Part shown: positions 10,876 to 24,172 of the stretch, one piece after another
Layout of the letters: the number at the start of each line of letters is the position of its first letter
How positions within the stretch are numbered: position 1 is the stretch's first letter
Assembly (NCBI GenBank): GCA_029212745.1
Contig: JARGOL010000001.1
Coordinates: 415,948-479,947 of the forward strand
DNA length: 64,000 nt
From: Alcanivoracaceae bacterium
GTDB taxonomy: Bacteria > Pseudomonadota > Gammaproteobacteria > Pseudomonadales > Alcanivoracaceae
Direction: 5' to 3'
Position numbers and translations under genes: made by a program
Notes under the pieces: model-generated
Told to the model about the DNA's origin: nothing
The model's input: only the letters and a program-made list of their open reading frames with translations
Databases searched by the model: none

Positions 10876-11418
10876 GTGAGCGAGCAACGCACCGTCGTCA
10901 CCAGTCGTGATGTACCTGCCCGCCTGGTGCCGGTGGGAACACGCATAACCATTCCGAAAAACTCTTTCGTCAACCTGCGCCAGGCGCTGGGTGGCAGCTA
11001 CACCGTGACCGTCAATGGCAACATGGCGCGGATTGATGGCACCGACGCCGACGCCATCGGCCAGCAACCCCTGGAGCTGGAGTTTCCTGCTGCCGACCCG
11101 GGCGGCCGGGTTCGCGAGGATGATCTCTGGTACGCGCTGAAGACCGTGTACGACCCGGAAATCCCGGTGAACATCGTTGACCTCGGCCTTGTCTACGGCT
11201 GTGACCTGATCACCCGTTCCGGCGAGCGAGTGGTCCAGGTGCGCATGACCCTGACCGCACCCAACTGCGGCATGGGCCCTGTACTTGTGGGTGACGTTGA
11301 AGATCGCCTGGCGAAAGTGCCCAACGTGGACAAGGTCGAGGTGGAACTCCTGTTTGATCCGCCCTGGTCACGGGACATGATGACCGAGGAAGCGCAACTG
11401 GAGCTGGGGCTTTTCTGA
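10876..11418 (+). CDS. sufT: Fe-S cluster maturation factor SufT (DUF59/MIP18 family)
   Basis: Auxiliary factor that helps Fe-S protein maturation, usually encoded with SUF genes. The 180-residue protein has an N-terminal beta region and a C-terminal DUF59 domain with YDPEIPVNIVDLGLVYGCDL and the conserved Cys in TAPNCGMGP. The start is taken as GTG at 10876, just after sufA. The longer frame begins inside sufA. Last gene of the suf operon. A short CGGCG/CGCCG hairpin at about 11424-11438 follows, without a T tract. Confidence 0.93.
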   Translation: MSEQRTVVTSRDVPARLVPVGTRITIPKNSFVNLRQALGGSYTVTVNGNMARIDGTDADAIGQQPLELEFPAADPGGRVREDDLWYALKTVYDPEIPVNIVDLGLVYGCDLITRSGERVVQVRMTLTAPNCGMGPVLVGDVEDRLAKVPNVDKVEVELLFDPPWSRDMMTEEAQLELGLF

Positions 11419-11520
11419 GCCTCCGGCGGTGTTCGCCGACACACCTTAGTTGCCCCTGGCAGTGTGTGATAGCATCCAAGCTCCGCCAATATCCCGGTTC
11501 TGGGCGTGTCCGGAGGAAAC

Positions 11521-12363
11521 GTGTTCCATTTTATTGCCAGCACAGGGCGCACCGCCACCACCTTCCTGGCCGCCTTCCTCGATACACTCGATGGTGTCAC
11601 CGCCTGTCACGAGGGGTATCCCGGCTCCGACAAGACCGCAGAGCCGATCCTGCCATTGATCAATCTGGAAAATGCCCTTTGCTATCGCAAGCCCTCAGCC
11701 GCCCGCGAGGTGGTGGAAACCAAACGTAGTCCGTTACAGATCGAAAAGGCGCTGGCGGTCTACGGCAGCCATACGCTGGTGGATGTTGCCTATTACAATC
11801 CGGTCATCGCCCGGGCCTTGCTTCAACAGCACCCGGAAGGCCGCATGGTGGCAATCATTCGCGATTGCGCTGGCTTCGTCCGGTCTGCCACCTGCCTTGA
11901 GGGTGAAGATCCCCTGCCTGTCGGCTGGCCGGCACCGGAAAAAGCCCTGACCGAACGCGAGAAGTTCATTGCCATGGGACGTATCAAGCCGGCACGGGGC
12001 ACTGTCGAGCATGACGCCTGGGGGCACTGGAGTGCCATTTGTCGCAATATCTGGCTGTGGCGGGAAACCAACCGCATACTGCTCGAGACAGTGCATGCAT
12101 TTCCGGACCGCGCAACGGTCCTGGACTTCCGGCAGCTTGGCAACGACCGCAGCGCCTTCCTTGGCGCGCTACTGGATGCGCTGTCGTTGTCACGGCCAGA
12201 CAACCTGGATGCGCTTGCATCAGCCTGCATGGACAAGCAGAACAGCAAGCCTTCCGGTTACCAGATTCCCGCCCCCCCGGAGTGGACCGGGGAAGAGCGG
12301 GACATGCTGGCCCGGGCACAACAACAAATAAACGAGATGTACGAACATGTCCCAACGCACTGA
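11521..12363 (+). CDS. Sulfotransferase-family protein heading the Dlt-like operon
   Basis: Predicted PAPS-dependent sulfotransferase, 280 residues. The N-terminus carries the 5'-phosphosulfate-binding loop ASTGRTATTFLAAFL (residues 6-20). A 3'-phosphate-binding segment IIRDCAGFVRSATC lies around residue 115. Tryptophan-rich helices follow (WGHWSAICRNIWLWRET). No signal peptide or membrane span, so it is cytosolic. GTG at 11521 follows GGAGG closely; a GTG at 11506 is the alternative. It overlaps the carrier-protein gene by 17 bases, which ties it to that operon. The substrate is unknown: a polymer precursor, lipid or small molecule are all possible. A P-loop kinase-like role cannot be excluded. 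Confidence 0.7.
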   Translation: MFHFIASTGRTATTFLAAFLDTLDGVTACHEGYPGSDKTAEPILPLINLENALCYRKPSAAREVVETKRSPLQIEKALAVYGSHTLVDVAYYNPVIARALLQQHPEGRMVAIIRDCAGFVRSATCLEGEDPLPVGWPAPEKALTEREKFIAMGRIKPARGTVEHDAWGHWSAICRNIWLWRETNRILLETVHAFPDRATVLDFRQLGNDRSAFLGALLDALSLSRPDNLDALASACMDKQNSKPSGYQIPAPPEWTGEERDMLARAQQQINEMYEHVPTH

Positions 12364-12598
12364 AACAATCTGCCAGGTCGTTGAGCAGGCCCTGAAGCAG
12401 GCCGCGCAGACCGACACGCTGTCTGCCCCCGTTACCGCCGACTCACAGATGAACAGTCCCCGGGAATGGGATTCACTGGCCTTCGTGTCAGTATTCCTCG
12501 CCGTGTCGCAACACTTTGGCATCGAGGTTGAAGAAGACGATGCCATCCACTTCACCTCCATAGCAGGCATCAACGAGTTTCTTGACGAGGCGCTTTGA
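12347..12598 (+). CDS. Acyl carrier protein (DltC-like)
   Basis: 83-residue phosphopantetheine carrier. The attachment serine is Ser43 in SPREWDSLAFVS, followed by an acidic recognition helix (IEVEEDDAIHFTSI). It should hold an activated acyl or aminoacyl group as a thioester for the adjacent adenylating enzyme. It overlaps the sulfotransferase upstream and meets the next gene as TGATG. It is not the fatty-acid ACP, whose motif and neighbours differ. Confidence 0.88.
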   Translation: MSQRTETICQVVEQALKQAAQTDTLSAPVTADSQMNSPREWDSLAFVSVFLAVSQHFGIEVEEDDAIHFTSIAGINEFLDEAL

Positions 12599-14106
12599 TG
12601 ACGGCGGCTCCCGACTCTCTCAAACAGCGACTGTACGAAACCGTACTGGCAAGCCCAGGTGACCGGGAAGCGATTACCGGGTTGCTGGCTGGCAGCCGGG
12701 TGACGCTGGATTACCAGGGCCTGCGGCGCGCCCTCAGCGGCCTGCAGCCCGCCCTGGCCAGCACAACTGCACCGGTCGGCATTCTCGCCAACCGCAGTGT
12801 GGAAGCCTGCACCTGCGTTCTTGCCTGTTTTCTCGCCGGGGTTCCCTTTGTGCCGTTGAACCCGGGTTTCCCGGCCCATCGTCTGGAACGAATCGCTCAG
12901 CTTGCCGGCATCGGCCATGTGCTGCACGAGCGCACCCACGCATCACTGGCAGGCTTGCTGGGTGTGCCAACGACTGACGCCAGTGCGCAGGTGCAGCAGG
13001 CCAGTGATGACCAGTTTGACACGTTGTTCTCTGGCACAGATACCGTGGATCGCCTGGCCTACCAGATGTTTACCTCGGGCTCCACCGGCGACCCCAAGGG
13101 TGTGCCCATCAGTGCCGGCAATCTGTCAGCCTACGTATCAGGCATTACCGACCTGATCCGGTTTTATCCCGGCGAGCGCTTCAGCCAGACATTCGACCTC
13201 AGTTTCGACCTTGCCATGCATGACATCTTTGTCTGTTTTGCCAGTGGGGGAACGCTGGCTGTGGCCACCGACATGAACCTGCTCATGCCTGGCGCCTTCA
13301 TCGACAAGGAGCGGCTGGACGTCTGGTTTTCGGTCCCGATGCTCGCCACCATTGCCAATCGTGCTGCCGCCCTGCATGCGGAAAAACACCGCCTGCGCCT
13401 GGCCCTGTTCTGCGGCGAAGCACTGGCGATGGATACGGCAATCACCTTTGACCGGGCTTTTGTCCGGGAACAGGGGGAGTTGTGGAACCTGTACGGCCCC
13501 ACCGAAGCCACCATTGCATTGACTGCACGTAACATTGGAGAGGTAGCGGCGGATCTTTCAGTTGCACCCATTGGCACGCCCTTTGGTCACAGCCGTGTTG
13601 CCCTGCAGCAGGACAACGGTGACGTCCTGCCAGATCCGGCGGCCGGAGCGGAGGGTGAATTGTTGCTCGGCGGTCCCCAGGTATTCACTGGCTATCAACC
13701 GCCAGTAGAAAAGCAGGTCTTCATCGACCACCAGGGCATGCGCTACTATCGCTCCGGCGACTGGGTCCATTGGGATGGCCACGAAATGCATTACGTGGGA
13801 CGCATTGACCAGCAGGTCAAGGTGCGGGGTTACCGGATTGAGCTGGGCGAAATCGAGGCAACCTTCCGGCGTATCTATGGCGTCGAAGCGGCAGCGGCTG
13901 TTGCCGTCACCAGAGCCGACACCGTTCATATCTGCCTTGCTTACCAGGACGCCGATGAAGTAACGGATCTCACGCTACTGGCCAATGAGCTTCCGGATTA
14001 CATGTTGCCCCATGCGACCAGACGTATGGATGAGCTGCCTTTGAACGCCAACGGAAAAGTGGACCGCAAGGTCCTCGCGGGATTGCCATGGTTCAACGAG
14101 TCCTGA
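12598..14106 (+). CDS. DltA-like amino acid adenylation enzyme (carrier-protein ligase)
   Basis: Stand-alone adenylation protein of 502 residues, the size of DltA. Motifs in order: FTSGSTGDPKGVP (phosphate loop), FDLSFDLAMHDIF, LFCGEAL, NLYGPTEATIAL, YYRSGDWV, GRIDQQVKVRGYRIELGEIE and the catalytic Lys in LNANGKVDRKVL. The Cys in LFCGE (about residue 273) sits where D-Ala-specific DltA enzymes have their selectivity cysteine, whereas many NRPS domains have Gly. It should form an aminoacyl-AMP and load the ACP encoded just upstream. D-alanine is the best guess, other small amino acids are possible. Confidence 0.85.
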   Translation: MTAAPDSLKQRLYETVLASPGDREAITGLLAGSRVTLDYQGLRRALSGLQPALASTTAPVGILANRSVEACTCVLACFLAGVPFVPLNPGFPAHRLERIAQLAGIGHVLHERTHASLAGLLGVPTTDASAQVQQASDDQFDTLFSGTDTVDRLAYQMFTSGSTGDPKGVPISAGNLSAYVSGITDLIRFYPGERFSQTFDLSFDLAMHDIFVCFASGGTLAVATDMNLLMPGAFIDKERLDVWFSVPMLATIANRAAALHAEKHRLRLALFCGEALAMDTAITFDRAFVREQGELWNLYGPTEATIALTARNIGEVAADLSVAPIGTPFGHSRVALQQDNGDVLPDPAAGAEGELLLGGPQVFTGYQPPVEKQVFIDHQGMRYYRSGDWVHWDGHEMHYVGRIDQQVKVRGYRIELGEIEATFRRIYGVEAAAAVAVTRADTVHICLAYQDADEVTDLTLLANELPDYMLPHATRRMDELPLNANGKVDRKVLAGLPWFNES

Positions 14107-15146
14107 TTCCCCTGCTGCTCCTGGCCGGCTTCTTCTTTATTGCCACCAGCGTTGACCGTGTGAAAGGCTACAATTTCCCGGTGTCGACGTTCTGCCGCAT
14201 CAGCCCGCAGGGACCGGCAGCGGACGTGCTGTTCATCGGTTCCAGCCGCATACGCGCAAGTTTCGACCCGGTTTTCATGGAAGAGCATGCCCGCGCCCTC
14301 ACCGGTGAACCACTCAGGGTCCATATGCTGTCCAGCAGCAGCACTGACCTGATTCTTTACAACGCCTTGTCGCGAAAATACCTGCGTGAACGCGGAAACC
14401 CTGCCCACGTTTTCATTGAAGCCATGCACACCACCCGGACCAATATCGATTTTTACCGGGAGCATAAAGACAGGCCACTGGTGCCATATGTGAGCAACGT
14501 CGGGCGTGCATTCCTGCCGCTGGCGGATTACGCCGCCATTCTGGCAACGCCACCTTTTGACCAGCCATTGCAACGGCTACGCCCACAACAGGTAAATATT
14601 GTCGAACTGGCTGCAAGCCAGTATGTGGCGGCGTTTTACCGCTTCCTCGAGGCGCCCCGGGAAAGCCTGCATGACCGGTCTTCCGAATGCCGGCAGTTGA
14701 CTGCCGGGGGGGACGCACGCGAGGCCCACTACCAGCAGCAGATCAGCGACTGGCAGGCGCAGTCACCGCAGCTGGTGGATGATGCCCTGCGAGCCACCCC
14801 TGCCTTTGCCGGCACCATCGGCAATGTTGCCCCGCGGGCGCCGGACTCGCCGGCACGCAAGTACGAGAACGCGGCCATGCATGCCCTGATCAAGCGCTTC
14901 CGGGATGCCGGCGTGGAGAACATTCATGTCGTTGTTCTGTCGTCCTTTGAGGAACCAGCCATCAGCGACCGGGACAGGCAAGCCTACGAACAGCTTTTCC
15001 CGGGCACGGACATCATTTTTTCAGAAGATCTGTACAAGGACACACCGGAGCTGGCGCTCATGTACCTGGACCGCTTTCACTACAATGCGTCCGGCACGCA
15101 GGTGCTGACTCGGGCCTACCTGGACAGGGTGCTTGGTGATGATTGA
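14088..15146 (+). CDS. Membrane-anchored SGNH protein (DltD-like)
   Basis: 352 residues with one N-terminal membrane segment (VLIPLLLLAGFFFIAT) and a probably periplasmic body. The SGNH Ser lies in DVLFIGSSRIRASFDP (about residue 52/53) and the C-terminal Asp/His pair in YLDRFHYNASG (D328, H331). SGNH proteins paired with MBOATs move acyl groups onto envelope polymers, as DltD and AlgX-like proteins do. The start overlaps the adenylation gene by 19 bases. Sequence resemblance to DltD itself is low, so the assignment rests on fold motifs and context. Confidence 0.75.
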   Translation: MVQRVLIPLLLLAGFFFIATSVDRVKGYNFPVSTFCRISPQGPAADVLFIGSSRIRASFDPVFMEEHARALTGEPLRVHMLSSSSTDLILYNALSRKYLRERGNPAHVFIEAMHTTRTNIDFYREHKDRPLVPYVSNVGRAFLPLADYAAILATPPFDQPLQRLRPQQVNIVELAASQYVAAFYRFLEAPRESLHDRSSECRQLTAGGDAREAHYQQQISDWQAQSPQLVDDALRATPAFAGTIGNVAPRAPDSPARKYENAAMHALIKRFRDAGVENIHVVVLSSFEEPAISDRDRQAYEQLFPGTDIIFSEDLYKDTPELALMYLDRFHYNASGTQVLTRAYLDRVLGDD

Positions 15147-16164
15147 TCCATTGACCCATGTCATCGCCCTGCTCATGACCCTGGTGGTATCGGGCCCGGT
15201 GGCACATCGCTACCGCCCATTCCTGGCAGCCGGCGCCGGCTTCGTCTTCCTGACCCTGTTTGCACCCACCGCGAGCCTGTTCCTGCTTTTCTCCATCGCA
15301 GAGGTGTGGTGCATCTGCCGACTGGTGGATAAACGTCCGCGCAATGACAACTGGCGCAAGTATGCACCTTACCTGTTACTGCTGAATCTTTTTTTCGTCG
15401 ACTTCCATGCGCTGCTGCTTGGCTGGTACGTCCAGACAGTGGGCATATCATTCGCACTCATCCGGCTGTTCATGACCGCCAAACAGCTCGTCTCCAGCCG
15501 CAAGGACTTGCGGAGTGAATACGGACGCTGGCTTTTCACCGCCACCTTCTATCTTCCCGCCATCATCATCGGCCCGATTTTTTCCGGCCTCGACCTGCGC
15601 AAACAGGCGCTGGCCGGCGAACAGCCCCTCAAGCGCGTTTCACGTACCTATCGTCACCTGTTCGGCGGCCTGGTGCTGGCTGTACTGGTGGCGCCCTATT
15701 TCGGCGACATGATCGTCTACGGTCTGGCGGCCCTGCTGCCGCCTTTCCTGATGCTGTTTGCCGCTTTCTGGGGCCAGTCACTGATTGCCGAGAACAGCTC
15801 ACGCCTGATGGGTTACCGGCTGCCACAGAATTTCAACAAGCCCTGGCTGGCCTCGGACATTCGCGACTTCTGGCGGCGCTGGCACGTGTCCATGGCACAG
15901 TTCATCATGCAGTACATCTATTTGCCGCTGACTCTCAGGGGCGTATCCCCACGCAAGGCAACTGTTGCTGCCTTCCTGTTCATGGGACTGTGGCACAAGG
16001 TGGCTCCTGGCTATCTGCTCTGGGGCCTCGGCCACGGCCTGCTGATGGCACTCTGGCCACCTGCGTCCGCGGACAGGCCCCGATGGTTCAACTGGGTCGA
16101 GAGAACCGTTACGCTGATAGCGGTTATCTGCCTGTCCTATGTCGCCAACCACGCATTCGGGTGA
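15139..16164 (+). CDS. Membrane-bound O-acyltransferase (DltB-like MBOAT)
   Basis: 341-residue polytopic inner-membrane protein with about eight to ten hydrophobic spans. MBOAT hallmarks: SDIRDFWRRWHVSMAQFI, and the catalytic His286 in AAFLFMGLWHKVAPGYLLWGLGHG. In known systems the MBOAT takes an acyl group from a cytosolic donor, here the ACP, and passes it across the membrane. It is shorter than DltB (about 400). ATG at 15139 is used; TTG and GTG codons immediately precede it in frame. It overlaps the SGNH gene. Confidence 0.88.
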   Translation: MIDPLTHVIALLMTLVVSGPVAHRYRPFLAAGAGFVFLTLFAPTASLFLLFSIAEVWCICRLVDKRPRNDNWRKYAPYLLLLNLFFVDFHALLLGWYVQTVGISFALIRLFMTAKQLVSSRKDLRSEYGRWLFTATFYLPAIIIGPIFSGLDLRKQALAGEQPLKRVSRTYRHLFGGLVLAVLVAPYFGDMIVYGLAALLPPFLMLFAAFWGQSLIAENSSRLMGYRLPQNFNKPWLASDIRDFWRRWHVSMAQFIMQYIYLPLTLRGVSPRKATVAAFLFMGLWHKVAPGYLLWGLGHGLLMALWPPASADRPRWFNWVERTVTLIAVICLSYVANHAFG

Positions 16165-16172
16165 GAACTGCC

Positions 16173-16289
16173 ATGAAGACGTTGCTGAAATCGGAACTGG
16201 TAAAGTGGGCGGCCCTCATCCTGCTGGTCTGGTTGCTGCTCGACCAGGTGGCGCCCGGGCTGAAAGAGTCGCCTTACAACGCCTTCTAG
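16173..16289 (+). CDS. DltX-like 38-residue membrane peptide
   Basis: A small gene that scans might miss, nine bases after the MBOAT stop with GGTGAG upstream. The product has a short basic/polar N-terminus (MKTLLKSELVK), a single hydrophobic span (WAALILLVWLLL) and the tail KESPYNAF. Gram-positive DltX is also about 50 residues with one span and an aromatic C-terminal motif, recalled as ending YNEF. In that system the tyrosine is reported to carry D-Ala between DltB and DltD. Tyr35 here is in the same place relative to the C-terminus. A terminator follows directly. DltX identity is inferred from size, topology, position and last residues. Confidence 0.72.
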   Translation: MKTLLKSELVKWAALILLVWLLLDQVAPGLKESPYNAF

Positions 16290-16304
16290 CGTGTAGCAGT
16301 AACA

Positions 16305-16331
16305 AAAAAGCCCGCATGAAGCGGGCTTTTT
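16305..16331. terminator. Bidirectional intrinsic terminator between the Dlt-like operon and ectB
   Basis: An 11-bp perfect stem, AAAAAGCCCGC with GCGGGCTTTTT and a 5-base loop, has U tracts in both directions. It can end both the plus-strand operon and the convergent ectB transcript. Confidence 0.9.
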
Positions 16332-16352
16332 CAGTGTCGGCATGGCCGTCGG

Positions 16353-17606
16353 TCAGACATGCTTCCTGGCCACTTCCCGGAACGCTTCCGAGAAGATGTC
16401 GAGCCCTTCCTTGAGGATGTCGTCCTCGATGGTCAGGGCCACGAACAGTTTGTTCACATGCCCCTCAGCCCCACAGGTCTCCGACACCAGCATGCGTTCG
16501 AACGCGGCAGCGGAGACTTCATCGGCGAAACCATCCAGCGGAGTCTCGATGCCCACCATCAGACCACGGCCCTTGACCCGGCAGTTGAGACTCGGAAACT
16601 CATCGCGCAGGCCCTTGAGGGTATCCATGATGATAGCGGCCTTGCGTGACACTTCGCTGGACAGCTTGTCGTCTGACCAGTACTGGTCAATCAGCACCTT
16701 GGCAGCGACAAACGCCAGGGAGTTGCCACGGAAGGTGCCGGTGTGCTCACCGGGCGACCAGACATCCACTTCGGGGTTGATCAGCAGGAGCGCCATCGGG
16801 TTGCCACCGCCAATGGACTTGGACAGGCAGATCAGGTCCGGCTTGATCCCGGATTCCTCGAAGGAGAAGAATTTTCCGGTACGGCCGTTACCCGACTGGA
16901 TGTCGTCCACAATCAGCAGGATTTCATGCTTGCGGCACAGCTTCTCAAGACCCTGGAGCCATTCGCTGGACGCCACGTTGATGCCGCCCTCACCCTGAAC
17001 CGTCTCAAGTATCACTGCCGCCGGTTTTTCCAGGCCGGAGCCCTTGTCCTCGAGATAACGCTCGAACACATACAGCGTATCGATATCCCCAAGGAAACCG
17101 TCAAACGGCATGAAGTTGACGGCGCCACGCGCGCCGTAGGATTCATCCCGGTAGGCCTCGTTACCCGTGGCAGCCAGGGCGCCCATGGTGTGACCATGGT
17201 AGGCGTTGGTAAAAGCAATGATGTTGTTGCGGCCAGTGGCCTGGCGAGCCAGCTTCATGGCCGCTTCCGTGCAGTTGGTGCCGGTCGGACCGGTAAACTG
17301 GAGCTTGTACTCCATCTTGCGGGGCTCAAGGATTTTCTCGATGAAGGTTTCCAGGAATTCCTTCTTCGCCACCGTCGCCTTGTCCAGCCCGTGGGCGATA
17401 CGACGGTCCTTGAGGTACTGGATCTGCGCTTCCACGGCCCGCTCCGGGTTGTGGCCGTAGTTCAGGGTCCCGGCGCCGGCAAAGAAGTCGATATAGCGCT
17501 TGCCGTCTTCGTCGAACAATTCAGAGCCAACGGCCTTGTCGAAAACGGTGGGGAATGAACGGATGTAGCCTCGAACCTCGGATTCGTACTCGTCAAAAAT
17601 CTCCAC
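16353..17606 (-). CDS. ectB: Diaminobutyrate-2-oxoglutarate aminotransferase (orphan EctB)
   Basis: Class III PLP aminotransferase that makes L-2,4-diaminobutyrate from aspartate semialdehyde with glutamate. The 417-residue protein shows EctB features: YIDFFAGAGTLNYGHN, TGPTGTNCTEAAMKLAR, AFTNAYHGHTMGALAATGN, VILETVQGEGGINVAS, LIVDDIQSGNGRTG and the PLP lysine in LICLSKSIGGG. The start is GTG at 17606 with AGGAAGG six bases upstream. The frame is open 74 more codons without family similarity. Ectoine genes normally run ectA-ectB-ectC, but neither partner is adjacent or elsewhere in the window. Confidence 0.88.
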   Translation of the reverse strand: MEIFDEYESEVRGYIRSFPTVFDKAVGSELFDEDGKRYIDFFAGAGTLNYGHNPERAVEAQIQYLKDRRIAHGLDKATVAKKEFLETFIEKILEPRKMEYKLQFTGPTGTNCTEAAMKLARQATGRNNIIAFTNAYHGHTMGALAATGNEAYRDESYGARGAVNFMPFDGFLGDIDTLYVFERYLEDKGSGLEKPAAVILETVQGEGGINVASSEWLQGLEKLCRKHEILLIVDDIQSGNGRTGKFFSFEESGIKPDLICLSKSIGGGNPMALLLINPEVDVWSPGEHTGTFRGNSLAFVAAKVLIDQYWSDDKLSSEVSRKAAIIMDTLKGLRDEFPSLNCRVKGRGLMVGIETPLDGFADEVSAAAFERMLVSETCGAEGHVNKLFVALTIEDDILKEGLDIFSEAFREVARKHV

Positions 17607-18023
17607 GGGGTACCTTCCTGTGTAAAAAAGCGGATTTAGCAGGGCGCGAAGTATAGCGCAAATGCAGCTTCTTTGCTCGTCAGCATCCACGCAGCGCACA
17701 CCCAAGCCGCTGATAATACTGGCAAACCCGGCGTGCAGGCGCCGCGAAGGCGGGCACAGGCCCAGGGTTGAAAGTGCTCCGGGACCCCCCGAAACGGAAA
17801 CCGGCAAACCGCGCATGGGCCCGTGCAAGGGCCCGTTTTATGGCGCCTGTGAACCAGGGCCAGGCAAAAAATGCGGCCATCTGGCGAAAAATTGACCGGT
17901 AATGGCGTGAAACTGCGCTCAACATCGTCCAACCAGGGCATCAGGATGGAACGCAGCGGGGCCGCCACCCATGCATCGGCCTGCCGCAAACCCGCCAAAT
18001 TCCTGCCTCAGGCGGTTTCCCCC
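17607..18023. other. Gene-poor region upstream of ectB
   Basis: About 420 bases with no supportable gene. Small frames on both strands lack family features and start signals. A short GGGCCC dyad (17818-17835, six-base loop, followed by GTTTTAT) could be a weak terminator. The ectB promoter presumably lies in its ectB-proximal part, but no clear -35/-10 pair stands out. Confidence 0.5.
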
Positions 18024-18241
18024 ATGTTGAGATGGTCGATCGCCTTCTTCATCATGGCCCTGATAGAAGGCATGCCGGGTTTCGGCGGCATTGCAGGTGC
18101 CGCTGCAGGTATCGCAAAGAGACTGCTTTTGTCCTTCCGGCGATGCTGGTGCTATCGCTGGTGGTGAGCCTGACCAGAGGCAGGCGGCCACCGGGATACG
18201 CAAACCCCGGCCTGATGCCTACATCCATTGTTCACCGATAA
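18024..18241 (+). pseudogene. Frameshifted YtjA/DUF1328-family small membrane protein gene
   Basis: Frame one reads [16 protein letters not shown] then [14 protein letters not shown], the signature of the YtjA (DUF1328) family. It then leaves the family pattern and ends at 18167. In the frame starting one base back, [21 protein letters not shown] supplies the expected second hydrophobic segment and basic tail, ending at 18241. A one-base loss near 18119-18125 explains both halves. EGMP in the first half is also unusual. Intact YtjA is about 50-60 residues with two membrane spans. This is either a decayed gene or a sequencing error. Confidence 0.7.
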
Positions 18242-18258
18242 AAAGGAGGGGTGCACAC

Positions 18259-18558
18259 ATGAAAACGTTGATACAGATGATCACAGTGGTGCTGTTTTCC
18301 AGTGCCATCGCGGCCTGCGGCGACGACCCCCAGTCTCCGGCTGAGAAAGCCCAGCAGGAGATGGAACAAACGGCCGACATTGCTGGCGAAGCCATGGAGG
18401 ATGCCGGGGATGACATCGAGGGGGTTCACGACAACACCGGGCCGATGGAAGCGGCCGGCGAAGCCATCGATGAGGGCGTCTCCGAGGCCGTTGATACCAT
18501 GAACGAGATGGAACACGAGGCAAAGCAGGCGCTGGAAGAATCCGGTGATGACATGTGA
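18259..18558 (+). CDS. Small acidic lipoprotein (first of a tandem pair)
   Basis: 99 residues. A lipoprotein signal MKTLIQMITVVLFSSAIAAC gives the lipidated Cys20. The mature part is a strongly acidic, Ala/Glu-rich, probably helical chain (PAEKAQQEMEQTAD, EAMEDAGDD, GEAIDEGVSEAVDTM). AGGAGG precedes the ATG at 18259. It shares the signal style and the PAEKAQ-x-x-ME stretch with the lipoprotein at 18811, so the two are paralogues. Composition recalls LEA-like or entericidin-neighbour stress proteins, but no function is established. Confidence 0.82.
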   Translation: MKTLIQMITVVLFSSAIAACGDDPQSPAEKAQQEMEQTADIAGEAMEDAGDDIEGVHDNTGPMEAAGEAIDEGVSEAVDTMNEMEHEAKQALEESGDDM

Positions 18559-18585
18559 TGCCGGCCTGCCCTGTTCATGACTGGG

Positions 18586-18612
18586 AAAAGGCGGCCTGCG
18601 GGCCGCCTTTTT
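18586..18612 (+). terminator. Intrinsic terminator after the first acidic lipoprotein
   Basis: Perfect 11-bp stem AAAAGGCGGCC / GGCCGCCTTTT with a 4-base loop and a trailing T, 28 bases after the stop codon. Confidence 0.9.
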
Positions 18613-18810
18613 GTGTCCGGGCAGTCACCGACAGTAAGCGACGGTGGCTGTGAACAACTGCACAGGATTCCCGAAAGAAGTGAACCGGGGCGGGACACAA
18701 GGCTCCGCAGAAGGTAGTGTAGTCAGTTCTGCCGCCTGGTTTGGGCATCGGCAAAGTGTTTTGAGGTCCGGGGTAGCCCCTGAAAATGCAACACGAGTGA
18801 GGATGACGAC

Positions 18811-19131
18811 ATGAAAACTTTTCTGCAGCTGATGCTGGTAGCACTTTTCTCTTTTTCAGTGACCGCATGCAGCGATGAGCCGGAAACACCGGCGGAGAAA
18901 GCACAGGAGCAAATGGAAGAAATGGCTGACACTGCCACGGATGCGGCAGAAGAAGCCGCTGACGCGGTAGAGGATGCTGCCGACAGCGATGGCCCCATGG
19001 AGGAAGCGGGTGAAGCCGTGGATGAAGTGGTGGATGACGCCAAGGATGCCGTGGAGGAAGCCGGTGATGAAATGGGTGACGCCATGGAAGAAGCCGGGGA
19101 CAAGATGGAAGAAGCCACCGACAAGATGTAA
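18811..19131 (+). CDS. Small acidic lipoprotein (second of a tandem pair)
   Basis: 106 residues. Signal MKTFLQLMLVALFSFSVTAC (Cys20), then PETPAEKAQEQMEEMAD and a run of short repeats built on D/E-A-x-E/D (EEAADAVEDAAD, AVDEVVDDAKDAVEEAGD, AMEEAGDKMEEATDKM). The mature chain is almost entirely Ala, Glu, Asp, Met and Lys, consistent with an amphipathic helix or a disordered hydrophilin. GAGGATGACGAC precedes the start. Own terminators flank both copies, so each is probably transcribed separately. Confidence 0.82.
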   Translation: MKTFLQLMLVALFSFSVTACSDEPETPAEKAQEQMEEMADTATDAAEEAADAVEDAADSDGPMEEAGEAVDEVVDDAKDAVEEAGDEMGDAMEEAGDKMEEATDKM

Positions 19132-19160
19132 GTCCGCTGTTGTCGTTGATTTTTCTGTCA

Positions 19161-19189
19161 GAAAACGGCCTCCGGGCCGTTTTCTTTTT
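19161..19189 (+). terminator. Intrinsic terminator after the second acidic lipoprotein
   Basis: 10-bp stem GAAAACGGCC / GGCCGTTTTC followed by TTTTT, 29 bases after the stop. It also lies just beyond the 3' end of the convergent lysR gene. Confidence 0.9.
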
Positions 19190-19207
19190 CCCGATTACCT
19201 GCAGCGT

Positions 19208-20089
19208 TCACAGAACCGCCTGACGCTTGAGCAGCTCCGCCAGCGCAGGTGGCAGATAGCTGCGTTTCACCGTAATGGCATAAAAGTTTTCCAGCACCCG
19301 CGGTAACGCCATGTACTCCTCCAGCTGGCCACCTTCAATTTCATCACGGACCACCACCTGCGGAAGAATGGCCAATGCCCCGCTGTCACGGGCCAGCAGG
19401 CGCAGCATCGCCATGTCGTCCACCTCTGCCTGTATGGACGGCTCAAACTGGGCGCTGCTGCACAGGGCATCAAAGGCTGCACGAATCTCTGAGGGTGGGC
19501 TTGGCAACACCCAACGGTGTGAGTCATAGCCCTTTGGAAACCGACGGTCGGGGCGCTGGCCGGCCGGACCAATTACCGAGACAGGCTGTTGTGCGATCAG
19601 CTGACTCTGCCACAAACGTTTCGGATTCACGGTCACATTGACACTGGAAAGCACCACATCCAGCGTGTGGTTGGCGAGACTGTCGAGCAGCTCGGCAATG
19701 CCGCGTGACTGCACCACCAGGCGTACGGAAGGCTGGGGCAACAGCGGCGCCAGAAAAGCGTCGACGAAATTTCGCGACATGGTGGACAGCACACCAACCC
19801 TGATCACCTGTTCATCGACGTTCTCGCCGCGCGCAATCAGGGATTCCAGTTCCTCACCACGACTGAAAATGGCTTCCGCATGGGTAAGCACCCGCTGGCC
19901 CCATTCGGTCAGCTGCAGTCGGCGGCCACTGCGGTCAAACAGGTCGCGGCCCATACTCTCCTCCAGCGCACGGATCTGCGCCGACAAGGCAGACTGGGAC
20001 ACATGCAGCGTCTGCGCCACACGGGTCAGGTTCCCCGCCGTGGCCACGCGCCAGAAATAGTACAGGTGGCGGTAATTAAGCCGGCTCAT
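19208..20089 (-). CDS. LysR-family regulator divergent from dabBA (NhaR-like)
   Basis: 293-residue transcription factor. The N-terminal winged HTH (LYYFWRVATAGNLTRVAQTL, SQSALSAQIRALEE) is followed by a LysR substrate-binding domain from about residue 95 (VIRVGVLSTMSRNFVDAFL). The N-terminus resembles the NhaR subgroup. ATG at 20089 is used; a TTG precedes it in frame. It is transcribed away from dabB across a 110-base A/T-rich gap with a LysR-type dyad, so it very likely controls dabBA and itself. The effector, possibly a signal of carbon limitation, is inferred. Confidence 0.88.
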   Translation of the reverse strand: MSRLNYRHLYYFWRVATAGNLTRVAQTLHVSQSALSAQIRALEESMGRDLFDRSGRRLQLTEWGQRVLTHAEAIFSRGEELESLIARGENVDEQVIRVGVLSTMSRNFVDAFLAPLLPQPSVRLVVQSRGIAELLDSLANHTLDVVLSSVNVTVNPKRLWQSQLIAQQPVSVIGPAGQRPDRRFPKGYDSHRWVLPSPPSEIRAAFDALCSSAQFEPSIQAEVDDMAMLRLLARDSGALAILPQVVVRDEIEGGQLEEYMALPRVLENFYAITVKRSYLPPALAELLKRQAVL

Positions 20090-20101
20090 CAACGCATACC
20101 A

Positions 20102-20121
20102 TCTATTTTATAGAACGAATA
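20102..20121. promoter_or_regulatory. LysR-type dyad between lysR and dabB
   Basis: CTATT and AATAG inverted half-sites ten bases apart fit the T-N11-A pattern bound by LysR regulators. They lie in the A/T-rich 20093-20199 gap between the divergent genes. Confidence 0.5.
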
Positions 20122-20199
20122 GTTTACATATATCTATTTTAATATACATAAAAACGGGCCTATAGTCGTCCCCGAATACACCGGAGAAGACATGCGCCA

Positions 20200-21759
20200 A
20201 TGGCACTGACCGACGCCCTCATGCTCGCCCCCGCCCTGCTCTACCTGACGGCTGCCCTGGCCCAGGCCGGCGGCGGCTGGCCGTTGGCCCGGCAGGTTGC
20301 CTGGACGGCCCTGGCCCTGTCAGCAGCTGCACCGGTGGCTGTACTCACGGGCGATCCGGGCGCGCCATCGGCCTGGCTGTCCGCAGCACCGCTGAACCTG
20401 GTGATGAGTGTACTGATCAGCCTGATTGCCCTGGTGGTCATTCGCTATTCCGGCAATTACCTCGACGGTGATTCCGCCGTTGGCCATTACCGGCGCTGGT
20501 TACTGGTCTGTCTCGCCGCCGTGTCCCTGGTAGTGATCAGCAACCACCTGCTGATACTGTGGCTGGCCTGGACCACCATTTCGGTAAGCCTGCACCAGCT
20601 GCTGGTGAGCTACCCGGACCGGTTCCGGGCCGTCCTGGCAGCACACAAGAAATTCTTGTTCGCGCGCATCGCCGAGAGCTGCCTGCTGGTCGCCAGCCTG
20701 CTTCTCTGGCAGCACCATGGCACGTTTCACATCGATACCATCCTGGCTCGCTACCCGTCATCCTCACTGTCCCCGGCGGAACAGACGGCGGCCGTGCTGC
20801 TGGCACTGGCCGCGCTGTTCAAGTGCGCGCAACTGCCGGTACATGGCTGGCTGATCCAGGTAGTGGAAGCGCCGACGCCGGTGTCCGCGCTGCTCCACGC
20901 CGGCGTGATCAACCTGGGCGGTTTCCTGATGATCCTCATGGCGCCGTTGATGGCCCAGTCACTGCCAGCACGCTGGTTACTGCTGGTGGTCGCCGGCCTG
21001 ACCACGGTGCTCGCCGCCCTGATCATGATGACGCGCATCAGTATCAAGGTGCGGCTGGCATGGTCCACCAGTGCCCAGATGGGCCTGATGCTGGTGGAAT
21101 GCGCGCTGGGCCTTCACGAGCTTGCCCTGCTACACCTGCTGGCGCATTCCTGCTACAAGGCACACGCCTTCCTGTCCGCCGGCACCGCGGTGCAGACCTA
21201 CCTGCGCCGTCAGTTGGCGCCGACACCCACACCTGGCCTGGCGCGCTGGGCCGGCGGCCTGGTGGTTTCCCTGACCCTGGTCGGGGCCACACTGGCCGCC
21301 CTGCATGTCGTCGTTCCGCATCCACTGACAGCTGCCGAACTGGCGCTGTGGTTATTGATGGGCATTGCTATCTCACTGTGGCTGGCGGCATCCCCCGGCA
21401 TCACCCTGTGGGCCCTTCTGACAGCACCGCTGCTGGTACTTGCCTACAGCGCCCAGAAACTGTTGCTCGCGCCGCTGGTGCCAGCCGTCCCCGACGCCGG
21501 CCTTGCTGCCGGCCTCTGGGTGGCAGCGCTGTGCGCCTTGCTACTGCTCGGCTACGGCCTGCTGGTGATGCACCAGACAGCGCTGGGTTTCCGCTGGCGC
21601 CAGTGGCTGTTTGCCGGCCTGTACCTGGATGAGTGGGTCACCCGCACCACCCTGCGCCTGTGGCCAGTGCGCCTGCCGCTGCCCGCCTCGCGCAAACAGG
21701 CAGGTTATGACCTGCTGCAGGAAAACAGCCGGAGGAGCAACGATGAGCGCATGGCCTGA
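20200..21759 (+). CDS. dabB: DAB inorganic carbon uptake, membrane subunit DabB
   Basis: 519-residue, about 13-span protein of the NuoL/MrpA proton-channel family. In the DAB system it couples an ion gradient to CO2 hydration by DabA, trapping bicarbonate in the cell. Features: LVVISNHLLILWLAWTTISV, LFKCAQLPVHGWLIQVVEAPTPVSALLHAG with the channel Lys/Glu and LLHLLAHSCYKAHAFLSAG. No other Nuo or Mrp subunit is nearby, and dabA follows with a 17-base overlap. GGAGAAG upstream also serves a five-codon ATG frame (20192-20208) that overlaps the dabB start. Confidence 0.93.
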   Translation: MALTDALMLAPALLYLTAALAQAGGGWPLARQVAWTALALSAAAPVAVLTGDPGAPSAWLSAAPLNLVMSVLISLIALVVIRYSGNYLDGDSAVGHYRRWLLVCLAAVSLVVISNHLLILWLAWTTISVSLHQLLVSYPDRFRAVLAAHKKFLFARIAESCLLVASLLLWQHHGTFHIDTILARYPSSSLSPAEQTAAVLLALAALFKCAQLPVHGWLIQVVEAPTPVSALLHAGVINLGGFLMILMAPLMAQSLPARWLLLVVAGLTTVLAALIMMTRISIKVRLAWSTSAQMGLMLVECALGLHELALLHLLAHSCYKAHAFLSAGTAVQTYLRRQLAPTPTPGLARWAGGLVVSLTLVGATLAALHVVVPHPLTAAELALWLLMGIAISLWLAASPGITLWALLTAPLLVLAYSAQKLLLAPLVPAVPDAGLAAGLWVAALCALLLLGYGLLVMHQTALGFRWRQWLFAGLYLDEWVTRTTLRLWPVRLPLPASRKQAGYDLLQENSRRSNDERMA

Positions 21760-24169
21760 ACTGAGTCGGGCGACCCATGACGCCTTGCGCGATGCCTGCG
21801 CCCGGATCGCACCCAGCTGGCCGCTGGACCAGCTCATCGCGGTGAACCCGTTCTGGGAAATGCGACAGCGCCCGTTTGCCGAGGTGGCCGCACGGATGGC
21901 CGCACTGGGGCAGGTGCAGTGCCTGATGGACGTGGACTACTACCGGTCGCTGTGGCTCAACCCGGTCCAGGCGCATCACCTCGAGCAGGCAGTGGAAGAG
22001 CTCGGACTGACACTGACCGTGGATGACCTGCTGGCGCCGGCCGCCGCGCCGGCACAACGGCACTGGTATAACGTCAGCGACCTGGTGGACAGTGAGCGCG
22101 AACAGCTTGCCGACAGCGTCCACCGGATGAGCTGGCACGAAGAAATCATTCACCAGATCAGCCAGTTCTGTGGCGACCTGCTGAGCACCCATGAGCGCAC
22201 CAGCCTGTCCGCTGAAACCGTGTACCAGCGCTGGCTGGACAGCACCCGCTCGGACCGTGGCCTGGCCATACTGATGCGCGAGCCGGCCCTGCAGGAAGCG
22301 TTCGCCCAGCTCCCCAACCGGGTGGAGGACCTGTTTGCCCAGGCCCTTTCCGAGCTGGCGCCCGATGATGCCGGCACCGGCGACTATGCATTGGCACTGT
22401 TGCTGGACATCAACGGCTGGGCCTCTGCACTGGCCTGGCTGCGCTGGCAGGCACGCCTGAACGGCCAGGACAACAACGCCATCGAGGGCCTGCTGGCGAT
22501 ACGACTGGCCTGGGACTGGGTGCTGTGGCAGTTGAACCACCGCCGAACGCAAAGTGACTGGCCGCAATTCTGGCAGCGGCAGTGGTCGTCGTTGCCGGCA
22601 TTGCTGGCCAGTCATGCCAGCCAGCAACAACGGGCACTGGCCTGGCAGCGGGCCAGCGAAATCGCCTACCAGTGCGAACTGGTACAGGTGCTGTCACAGC
22701 CATTGCCAGAAGCATCGCCAGCACCGGTACTGCAGGCTGCCTTCTGTATCGATGTTCGCTCTGAAATCATGCGCCGGGCGCTGGAAGCCCAGTACCAGGG
22801 CATCGAGACCCTTGGCTTTGCCGGCTTTTTCGGCTTGCCCCTGGCGTATCAACCGGCAGGCTCCGGCTACCAGCGCCCGCAGCTGCCCGGCCTGCTGGCG
22901 CCAGCCATCACCGTTCGGGAGAGCGGCGCAGAGGCGTTCCCTCCCGCCCCGGGACAACGCGCCAATCACTGGGACATGTTCAGCGCCAGCGCGCCCAGCA
23001 CATTTACAGCCGTGGAAAGCGGCGGCCTGTTCTACCTGTTCAAGCTGCTGCGGCAGAGCCTGTTCCCGGGCCCGGCCTCACATCCGGTCAATGCTCTCAC
23101 TGGCGGCAGCGGCGCCTTCCAGCTGACCCGCAACGGTGCGCCGGTACCCGTGGAAACACAGGCCGAGCTGGCCCTGGCGGTGCTCACTGCCATGGGGCTG
23201 CGCGGACGGCTGGCACACCGTGTCCTGCTGGTCGGGCACGGCAGCAACACCTGCAACAACCCGCACGCGGCCGGACTCGACTGTGGCGCCTGTGGCGGTC
23301 AGACCGGCGAGGTCAACGTGCGCGTGCTGGCACAACTGCTCAACGACCCGGACGTGCGCGCCGAACTGAAAAAGCAGGGCGAAGACATCCCCCCGTCAAC
23401 CCGGTTTGTGCCTGCCCTGCACGACACCACCACCGATGACATCCACTGCTTCGCGGCGCAGGACGGCGATCTGGACAACACGGTGCGCGGCTGGCTCAAG
23501 CGGGCCAGCATGGGCGCCCGGCAGGAACGCGCCGCGCGCCTGGGGCTCGATGGCGGCAAGGATCTGACGAAATCACTGCGCCAGCGCAGCCGTGACTGGT
23601 CACAGGTGCGGCCGGAATGGGGACTGGCGGACAACGCCAGCTTTATCGTCGCACCACGCGCGCGCACGCGGCATATCAACCTGCACGGGCGCACCTTCCT
23701 GCACGATTATGACTGGCGCAGGGACACCGGCTTCGCACTGCTGGAAACAATCATGACCGCGCCCATGGTGGTCACCCACTGGATCAACATGCAGTACAAC
23801 GCGTCAGTCACCGACAACACCAAACTGGGCTGCGGCAACAAGGCACTGCACAACGTCGTCGGCGGCAATCTGGGCGTGTTCGAGGGCAATGGCGGCGACC
23901 TGCGTATCGGCCTGCCGTTCCAGTCCGTCAACAACGGTCAGCGCTGGATGCACCAGCCGCTGCGACTGAGCGTCTTCATTGCGGCGCCACAGGAGGCCAT
24001 TGCCGATGTGCTGGCCGCCCATGAGACGGTGCGCCAGCTGGTGGAGAACGACTGGCTCTACCTGTTCAGGCTGGGTGATGAGCCCGGGCAGATCAGCCGC
24101 TGGTACCACGGGCGATTCCAGGCTGTGTCCGCCATCGGAAAGGATGGCAAAGGCAGGGACGCCGCCTGA
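21743..24169 (+). CDS. dabA: DAB inorganic carbon uptake, zinc subunit DabA (DUF2309)
   Basis: 808-residue cytoplasmic-face protein with a beta-carbonic-anhydrase-like zinc site. The predicted ligands are present: Cys335 and Asp337 in FCIDVRSE, His499 in LVGHGSN and Cys514 in DCGACGGQ. The 15-residue His-Cys spacing equals that recalled for Halothiobacillus DabA. Together with DabB it hydrates CO2 in an energy-coupled way. ATG at 21743 follows GGAGGAG. It ends three bases from the convergent sufE. In a non-autotroph such systems supply bicarbonate for carboxylases. Confidence 0.95.
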   Translation: MSAWPELSRATHDALRDACARIAPSWPLDQLIAVNPFWEMRQRPFAEVAARMAALGQVQCLMDVDYYRSLWLNPVQAHHLEQAVEELGLTLTVDDLLAPAAAPAQRHWYNVSDLVDSEREQLADSVHRMSWHEEIIHQISQFCGDLLSTHERTSLSAETVYQRWLDSTRSDRGLAILMREPALQEAFAQLPNRVEDLFAQALSELAPDDAGTGDYALALLLDINGWASALAWLRWQARLNGQDNNAIEGLLAIRLAWDWVLWQLNHRRTQSDWPQFWQRQWSSLPALLASHASQQQRALAWQRASEIAYQCELVQVLSQPLPEASPAPVLQAAFCIDVRSEIMRRALEAQYQGIETLGFAGFFGLPLAYQPAGSGYQRPQLPGLLAPAITVRESGAEAFPPAPGQRANHWDMFSASAPSTFTAVESGGLFYLFKLLRQSLFPGPASHPVNALTGGSGAFQLTRNGAPVPVETQAELALAVLTAMGLRGRLAHRVLLVGHGSNTCNNPHAAGLDCGACGGQTGEVNVRVLAQLLNDPDVRAELKKQGEDIPPSTRFVPALHDTTTDDIHCFAAQDGDLDNTVRGWLKRASMGARQERAARLGLDGGKDLTKSLRQRSRDWSQVRPEWGLADNASFIVAPRARTRHINLHGRTFLHDYDWRRDTGFALLETIMTAPMVVTHWINMQYNASVTDNTKLGCGNKALHNVVGGNLGVFEGNGGDLRIGLPFQSVNNGQRWMHQPLRLSVFIAAPQEAIADVLAAHETVRQLVENDWLYLFRLGDEPGQISRWYHGRFQAVSAIGKDGKGRDAA

Positions 24170-24172
24170 CGT

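Follow-up and report, generated by a model that had tools for sequence, protein, structure and literature searches.

Organization of the operon

A 64,000-nucleotide stretch of DNA from an Alcanivoracaceae bacterium (assembly GCA_029212745.1, contig JARGOL010000001.1, positions 415,948 to 479,947), here called the window, contains six tightly packed genes that encode a sulfotransferase-like protein, an acyl carrier protein (ACP), an adenylating enzyme, an anchored SGNH protein, a membrane-bound O-acyltransferase (MBOAT), and a one-span peptide. As we discuss below, these genes probably specify a relay for envelope acylation that is fed by a carrier and functions like the Dlt system, with the sulfotransferase in the same pathway. 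All six open reading frames (ORFs) were confirmed on the plus strand (Table 1), with successive junctions of -17, -1, -19, -8, and +8 bases for the chosen starts. The segment beyond the last gene (16290-16345) folded with a z of -4.2, and 0 of 200 shuffles were equally stable; a simple terminator scan did not list the hairpin within it, which has its U run in the stem. A search of 11300-16500 for sigma-70-like promoters found none. The packing, the overlaps, the final 8-base gap, and the closing terminator had all been described in an original prediction made from the DNA letters, and each was recovered.

Table 1. Genes and terminator of the operon, with coordinates in the window.
Feature	Coordinates	Strand	Remarks
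Sulfotransferase-like protein (3′-phosphoadenosine-5′-phosphosulfate, PAPS, type), 280 aa	11521..12363	+	GTG start shortly 3′ of GGAGG; mechanical ORF begins 11506
ACP, 83 aa	12347..12598	+	Phosphopantetheine (Ppant) Ser in EWDSLAF
Stand-alone amino-acid adenylating enzyme, 502 aa	12598..14106	+	Pocket code DLHSLCLIAK
SGNH acyltransferase-like protein, N-terminally anchored, 352 aa	14088..15146	+	G51-S-S ... D328-R-F-H331
MBOAT, 341 aa	15139..16164	+	Catalytic His in MGLWH286; C-terminal shuttle motif absent
One-span peptide, 38 residues, DltX-like acyl shuttle	16173..16289	+	C-terminal SPYNAF
Terminator hairpin, 11 pairs	16305..16331	+	U run within stem; fold computation

Components of the putative relay

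Gene presence indicates that the operon would supply its own relay donor, as carrier and adenylating enzyme are both encoded in it. The adenylating enzyme matched the Pfam AMP-binding family clearly (183 bits), scored 279.8 bits against TIGR01733 (under the cut-off of 317.4), and had a nonribosomal peptide synthetase (NRPS) as its best PDB sequence match. Its score against the TIGR03098 ligase was 124.3 bits (cut-off 592.35), and neither the ORF list nor Pfam revealed a decarboxylase among the six genes of the operon; the exosortase-A ligase/decarboxylase pair was not recognized. The ACP scored exactly at the PF00550 cut-off (20.8 bits), and its Asp42 and Ser43 were invariant in an alignment with DltC and the ACP of a related cluster (G075, described below). 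At the ten pocket positions of the adenylating enzyme, located by NRPS numbering, seven residues were the same as in Enterococcus DltA (DLMSLCTVAK), including the Cys of FCGE that we take to be a marker of D-Ala. As judged from the code, the pocket would suit D-Ala or another small alpha-amino acid.

In a search of 333 genomes (four candidates scored per genome), the nearest adenylating enzymes had 40-42% identity and lay at loci without an MBOAT match; the code of one (G040) was identical to that of the window, and three others (G252, G271, and G290) differed at one residue. Loci with the closest enzymes include L123, where a bile-acid-symporter-like gene adjoins, L124, and L125, whose neighboring genes encode an AurF-like oxygenase, a reductase, and an ACP.

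In the membrane half, the MBOAT matched PF03062 clearly (68.4 bits) and the DltB structure 6bug (5.6e-13), and its MGLWH286 aligned with DltB and with the G075 MBOAT, as expected for the catalytic His. A second MBOAT in the same genome (L018, G000:C3:16629-17441) scored 160 bits against the DltB model (cut-off 375), compared with 75.7 for the operon MBOAT in the same search. The SGNH protein carries an N-terminal span and had no Pfam or NCBIfam match. Its Gly51, Ser53, Asp328, and His331 residues were invariant in 12 of 12 aligned SGNH proteins, consistent with a catalytic Ser and Asp-x-x-His, and a Foldseek search with its low-confidence model (pLDDT 51) gave DltD (6pfx) as the best match (E 1.6e-3, none at E<=0.001), with GDSL esterases also found. 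The peptide has a single hydrophobic span, and its C terminus is a variant form of FxYxxF, the shuttle motif of DltX, which the original prediction had not noticed. When aligned with DltX of Enterococcus casseliflavus (L020, FIYNEF) and the G075 peptide (FRYQGF), its Tyr and terminal Phe were invariant. Among 646 window ORFs of 25-124 codons, the Y..F ending occurred once, in an ORF (15990-16289) that contains the peptide, and so this ending is not common by chance.

The first ORF scored 17.6 bits against PF13469, below the cut-off of 27 for this PAPS sulfotransferase family. It contains TGRTATTFL and R-x7-S, which we take to be 5′-PSB-like and 3′-PB-like motifs, and the best 50 of 348 PDB matches (E<=10) of its AlphaFold2 model in Foldseek were all sulfotransferases, with TM values of about 0.3-0.4 and a model pLDDT of 48; this fold result is not independent evidence, as the alignment behind the model included four sulfotransferases. 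The genome encodes an APS kinase and therefore can make PAPS. It also encodes LolB (at 46571; 93.5 bits, cut-off 59.6), and the host is therefore Gram-negative.

The expectation of a Dlt-like relay in a Gram-negative bacterium was supported. The family assignments of the original prediction held clearly for the AMP-binding and MBOAT proteins and at the cut-off for the PP-binding protein; the sulfotransferase assignment was weak, and the SGNH assignment had no Pfam counterpart.

Sulfotransferase genes recur in related clusters

Of 341 genomes of the order searched with the MBOAT, eight matched at E<=1e-20, one being the genome of the window and another G075, whose MBOAT in turn matched 3 of 369 genomes of the class at E<=1e-40. 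In G075, all six families lie within about 5.3 kb. The adenylating enzyme, ACP, and sulfotransferase (a clear PF13469 match of 91 bits) share one strand, and the MBOAT, a 54-residue peptide ending in FRYQGF, and an SGNH-like protein are encoded convergently on the opposite strand. No such MBOAT was found in the other genome of this genus that was examined. An AT3-type acyltransferase (L011:3132-4310) adjoins the G075 cluster. A second genome, G609, contains all six families plus a pyridoxal-phosphate (PLP) decarboxylase, and two more (G399 and G725) contain the relay with an FMN-reductase-domain protein and gave no sulfotransferase match.

Searching GTDB contigs with an alignment of the G075 and G609 MBOATs and two patterns gave at least 80 loci, a lower bound on prevalence. 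The best 12 of these (L034-L045) grouped with G075 and G609 with support of 98/97 in a tree of 35 rows, which included 15 of the 68 loci with more distant MBOATs. These 14 clade loci (L042, with two MBOAT copies, being counted once) were gathered by MBOAT similarity alone, without use of the sulfotransferase. Six of them encode a sulfotransferase, and all six families are present in each: G075, G609, L035 and L037 (Rhodobacteraceae), L043 (Rhodobacterales), and L038 (Phycisphaerales). The sulfotransferase-bearing clade loci therefore span the window's own class, Alphaproteobacteria, and Planctomycetota. The original prediction would have been refuted had the sulfotransferase proved unlinked to the other families in relatives; its recurrence at 6 of 14 clade loci speaks against that outcome. 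By contrast, the conserved six-family order that it anticipated was not observed: the donor genes occur in three orders and whole clusters in five.

Among the contig loci listed, searches with the G075, G609, and window sulfotransferases found a sulfotransferase at 4 of 12 clade loci versus 0 of 68 distant-MBOAT loci (Fisher p 0.0003, or 0.002 with the near-identical L035 and L037 counted once), in tests that treat loci as independent and in which MBOAT type is confounded with descent. A profile hidden Markov model (HMM) of the six related sulfotransferases gave two weak matches among the 68 distant loci (24.5 and 16.9 bits; Fisher p 0.004 if counted). Its four strong matches arise by construction, as it was built from these proteins; the counts of 4/12 and 0/68 come from the single-sequence search.

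The three donor-gene orders are sulfotransferase-ACP-adenylating enzyme in the window, adenylating enzyme-ACP-sulfotransferase in G075, L035, and L037, and ACP-decarboxylase-sulfotransferase-adenylating enzyme in G609, L038, and L043. In 7 of 7 loci, no more than 10 bases separate the sulfotransferase gene from the ACP or adenylating-enzyme gene, or the two overlap; the G075 sulfotransferase gene stops 2 bases short of the convergent MBOAT gene as well. The sulfotransferase is not obligatory in the clade relay. In some members that lack it, additional genes are present: those for a PALP enzyme and an N-formyltransferase in L036, a GT87 glycosyltransferase in L034, and a GNAT about 300 bases 3′ of the ACP in L045. 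The genes at the extra-gene position in L040 and L042 had no Pfam match (10 proteins scanned), and the contig of L041 is cut 84 bases upstream of the SGNH ORF, which means that a donor half may lie beyond. An FGE-sulfatase-domain protein (L036:4694-6061) lies between the MBOAT and adenylating enzyme of L036.

A homologous PLP decarboxylase is present in five relay loci (L038, L040, L042, L043, and L027). The two scanned with NCBIfam, from L038 and L040, were TIGR03099-like (353 and 392 bits, cut-off 478). The adenylating enzymes of this type have pocket codes such as DYGATTNRSK, unlike the DLFSLCLLAK of L035, L037, and L045, and such a relay would, based upon these sequences, put a decarboxylated amino acid on the carrier. 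TIGR03098-like ligases occur in L038 and L043; TIGR03098 and TIGR03099 are named for exosortase-A loci. A second type of carrier-fed relay (L028, L029, L047, and L048) has an MBOAT of 539-565 aa, an ACP, an adenylating enzyme, an SGNH protein, a detached peptide ending in FRYAGF or FRYATF, and an extra protein of about 470-510 aa, which in L028 and L029 contains an FMN-reductase domain and is accompanied by the odd pocket code TSCGxSAGRK.

In single-sequence searches, the SGNH protein of the window found itself alone (1 of 46 family and 1 of 341 order genomes), as did the sulfotransferase (1 of 46 family and 1 of 369 class genomes), which also had no match among PDB sequences; the MBOAT gave 13 pattern matches in GTDB genome contigs, 0 of them confirmed. 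Plasmid searches with the SGNH protein and sulfotransferase found no match. Of the plasmid MBOAT matches (85 and 136 records) that were opened, L030, L031, and L033 were not dlt-like by annotation, L020 and L022 were dlt operons, and L021 and L032 carried no annotation. We also do not regard a common origin of all of the sulfotransferases as demonstrated, as the window protein scored 3.7 bits against the HMM of the other six, to which homology is not detectable by sequence. The window is best read as an outlier with the same gene combination as the clade, either assembled separately or diverged beyond recognition. Because gene order is variable and the window sulfotransferase lacks detectable homology, the pairing of sulfotransferase and relay may have come about repeatedly.

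Detached and fused shuttle motifs

In Dlt, the invariant Tyr of FxYxxF near the C terminus of DltX carries D-Ala from DltB to DltD, and in PatA the motif lies within the MBOAT itself, where its Tyr is acetylated (PMC12148441). We surveyed 101 MBOATs (ORFs of at least 300 aa) from 95 loci, including Enterococcus and Limosilactobacillus DltB. Of 26 MBOATs with both an ACP and an adenylating enzyme within 6 kb, 18 had a detached peptide, 3 a fused motif, and 5 neither, the window peptide being counted among the 18 solely through a pattern that had been extended to admit its variant ending. MBOATs with neither donor gene (68) gave 57 fused motifs, 5 detached, and 6 neither, and those with one of the two (7) gave 2 detached and 5 neither. 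The contrast in detached:fused ratios, 18:3 versus 5:57, had a p of 5e-11. Among MBOATs that had a detached peptide but no donor genes, two (L041 and L044) belong to the G075/L034-L045 clade. The three fused motifs near donor genes (L048 copy 1, L072, and L102) were kept in the count; copy 2 of L048 was scored as neither, as its peptide, though present, was removed by a hydrophobicity filter, and L047 was scored by another ORF than its listed peptide. These results suggest that a carrier donor goes with a detached shuttle and other donors with a fused one, a rule confounded with MBOAT descent.

Detached FxYxxF peptides occur beside carrier-fed MBOATs in Proteobacteria, Hydrogenedentota, and Planctomycetota. 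The 2025 PatAB study describes MBOAT pathways other than Dlt as lacking a DltX-like microprotein (PMC12148441), in contrast to the peptides found here.

Relationship to characterized systems

Like Gram-positive Dlt (dltXABCD), the window encodes an adenylating enzyme with a similar pocket code, a carrier, an MBOAT, a one-span shuttle peptide, and an SGNH protein. It differs in the added sulfotransferase, in an order of sulfotransferase-ACP-adenylating enzyme-SGNH-MBOAT-peptide rather than XABCD (as in L020), in scores below the Dlt cut-offs, and in a host in which teichoic acid is not expected. Dlt proteins without teichoic acid are also described for Dickeya, Pectobacterium, and Photorhabdus, where the substrate is said to be unidentified; the accessible part of that source names dltBAC and dltD and has 0 occurrences of DltX, and we compared these loci with the window by description rather than by sequence (PMC3544676). 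PatAB, AlgIJ, and similar MBOAT-SGNH pairs share the transfer from MBOAT to Tyr to SGNH Ser (PMC12148441), but use a coenzyme A donor and a shuttle motif fused to the MBOAT, in contrast to the carrier donor and detached peptide of the window. The G075/G609/L034-L045 clade shares the relay families (donor genes being unseen in L044 and in the cut L041), and six members share the sulfotransferase as well. Clade MBOATs are 390-437 aa long and group without that of the window, and five members add a PLP decarboxylase.

For the sulfotransferase, the closest functional likeness is SulN of sulfazecin biosynthesis, which N-sulfonates a carrier-bound tripeptide with PAPS and likewise works with carrier and adenylation functions. 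SulN serves an NRPS antibiotic pathway, for which MBOAT and SGNH proteins are not named in the part of the source available, and the likeness is drawn from function (PMC11298585). In literature searches combining sulfotransferase with dlt, MBOAT, or carrier terms, none of the papers among the matches listed dealt with a pathway joining them, with most subscription papers outside reach.

Proposed mechanism and alternatives

Based upon function, the window most likely encodes a Dlt-like relay. Transfer through an acyl-Tyr shuttle and then an SGNH Ser has been published for both Dlt and PatAB (PMC12148441), and by analogy the adenylating enzyme would activate a small amino acid (D-Ala or similar) and load it onto the ACP; the MBOAT would take the acyl group off the ACP and move it through the inner membrane to the SPYNAF Tyr; and the anchored SGNH protein would accept it on Ser and then esterify an acceptor outside the cytoplasm with it. 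The sulfotransferase would act in the cytoplasm with PAPS, prior to export, in the same pathway. The amino acid, acceptor, and sulfation target in this scheme are candidates only. That distant bacteria also have a sulfotransferase next to gene sets of this kind hints at a surface modification not yet described.

Several observations weigh against a Dlt-like relay that includes the sulfotransferase. First, by membership, as judged from profile scores, the window is not Dlt, because two curated Dlt cut-offs were missed by a wide margin: the adenylating enzyme scored 233.6 bits against the DltA equivalog TIGR01734 (cut-off 559.85), and the MBOAT scored 86.7 bits against the DltB equivalog TIGR04091 (cut-off 375). 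Moreover, the window MBOAT sits on a branch of 4.3 changes per column, outside the related clade and without resolution in the 35-row tree. Hence, the original assignment of the DltA-sized enzyme and MBOAT to a Dlt-like set stands for gene content, not for family membership. The original prediction would also have been refuted had the two proteins belonged to an already characterized pathway; in sequence comparisons, they resemble Dlt and NRPS families at a distance only. Second, SPYNAF lacks the first Phe of FxYxxF, which is kept in full in DltX and in 13 of 14 clade peptides, and the peptide entered the survey count through a tailored pattern. Third, we rejected the pocket code as proof of D-Ala: the same code occurs in a stand-alone enzyme at a locus without an MBOAT match and therefore proves neither D-Ala nor an envelope role. 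Finally, 8 of 14 clade loci show no sulfotransferase (the contig of one, L041, being cut), and the window sulfotransferase, with its 3.7-bit HMM score, is not shown to be homologous to the other six and has a poor fold model, whose alignment included four sulfotransferases.

Where the sulfotransferase acts is less certain than the relay itself. We slightly favor, tentatively, the carrier-bound acyl group as its target. The sulfotransferase gene abuts an ACP or adenylating-enzyme gene in all seven loci and so may act on what the carrier holds, and its position is constant with two different donor chemistries. We do not rate this route higher because the G075 sulfotransferase gene also abuts the convergent MBOAT gene and because flanking genes were scanned in part. 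Taken with the SulN precedent, gene position makes the donor at least as likely a target as the acceptor or its precursor. If the enzyme acts on the donor, then the relay would permit modular building and export of acyl groups other than D-Ala and acetyl. In one specific version, which we regard as rather unlikely, the sulfotransferase would sulfonate the carrier-held aminoacyl group, most simply on the free amine as SulN does, and the relay would export and esterify an acidic N-sulfo-aminoacyl group, reversing the charge of D-alanylation. The formyltransferase of L036 and the GNAT of L045, which follow the ACP, could be other amine-modifying enzymes in a set of carrier-edited envelope acyl groups.

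Somewhat less probable is sulfation of the acceptor, in which the enzyme would modify a cytoplasmic precursor of the acceptor glycan or lipid, and that polymer, once outside, would also be esterified with an aminoacyl group by the relay. An envelope polymer bearing sulfate is a plausible acceptor, and the best NCBIfam match of the two related sulfotransferases scanned of the six (L035 and L043) was NoeE, at 65.8 and 44.3 bits (cut-off 500). NoeE sulfates a Nod-factor sugar, and this weak resemblance favors a sugar acceptor. However, scanning of genes in the operon and the sulfotransferase-bearing clusters revealed no recognizable glycosyltransferase (flanking ORFs being scanned in part), and the 7-of-7 adjacency to donor genes includes G075, whose membrane half is encoded on the opposite strand, although there the MBOAT gene is also only 2 bases away.

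We consider it improbable that the operon carries out plain Dlt-like aminoacylation with the sulfotransferase as a neighbor having another role. The sulfotransferase-less clade members and the missing homology of the window protein to the other six would be explained, but the sulfotransferase ORF overlaps the ACP ORF by 17 bases, and three classes have sulfotransferases within clusters of this kind. We regard a pathway to a small natural product (NRPS-like, siderophore, or antibiotic) as very improbable: despite the NRPS as best PDB match and nearest adenylating enzymes at MBOAT-less loci, including L125 with its oxygenase, reductase, and ACP, Pfam found no condensation or thioesterase domain in the operon, and we know of no role for MBOAT, SGNH, or shuttle-peptide proteins in such pathways. 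Thus, a carrier-fed relay with the sulfotransferase in its pathway remains our preferred explanation.

Genomic setting

In all 29 loci read from relatives, a SufE homologue comes directly after SufT (44 relatives matched; 15 yielded no locus). In the window, SufE lies 12.8 kb from SufT in the opposite orientation, and the interval 11419-24172 is absent between these genes in the same 29 loci. The operon is therefore part of a stretch that was rearranged or inserted in this lineage specifically, a location that fits its rarity. This interval also contains EctB (16356-17828; 607 bits against TIGR02407, cut-off 552) and a LysR-type regulator.

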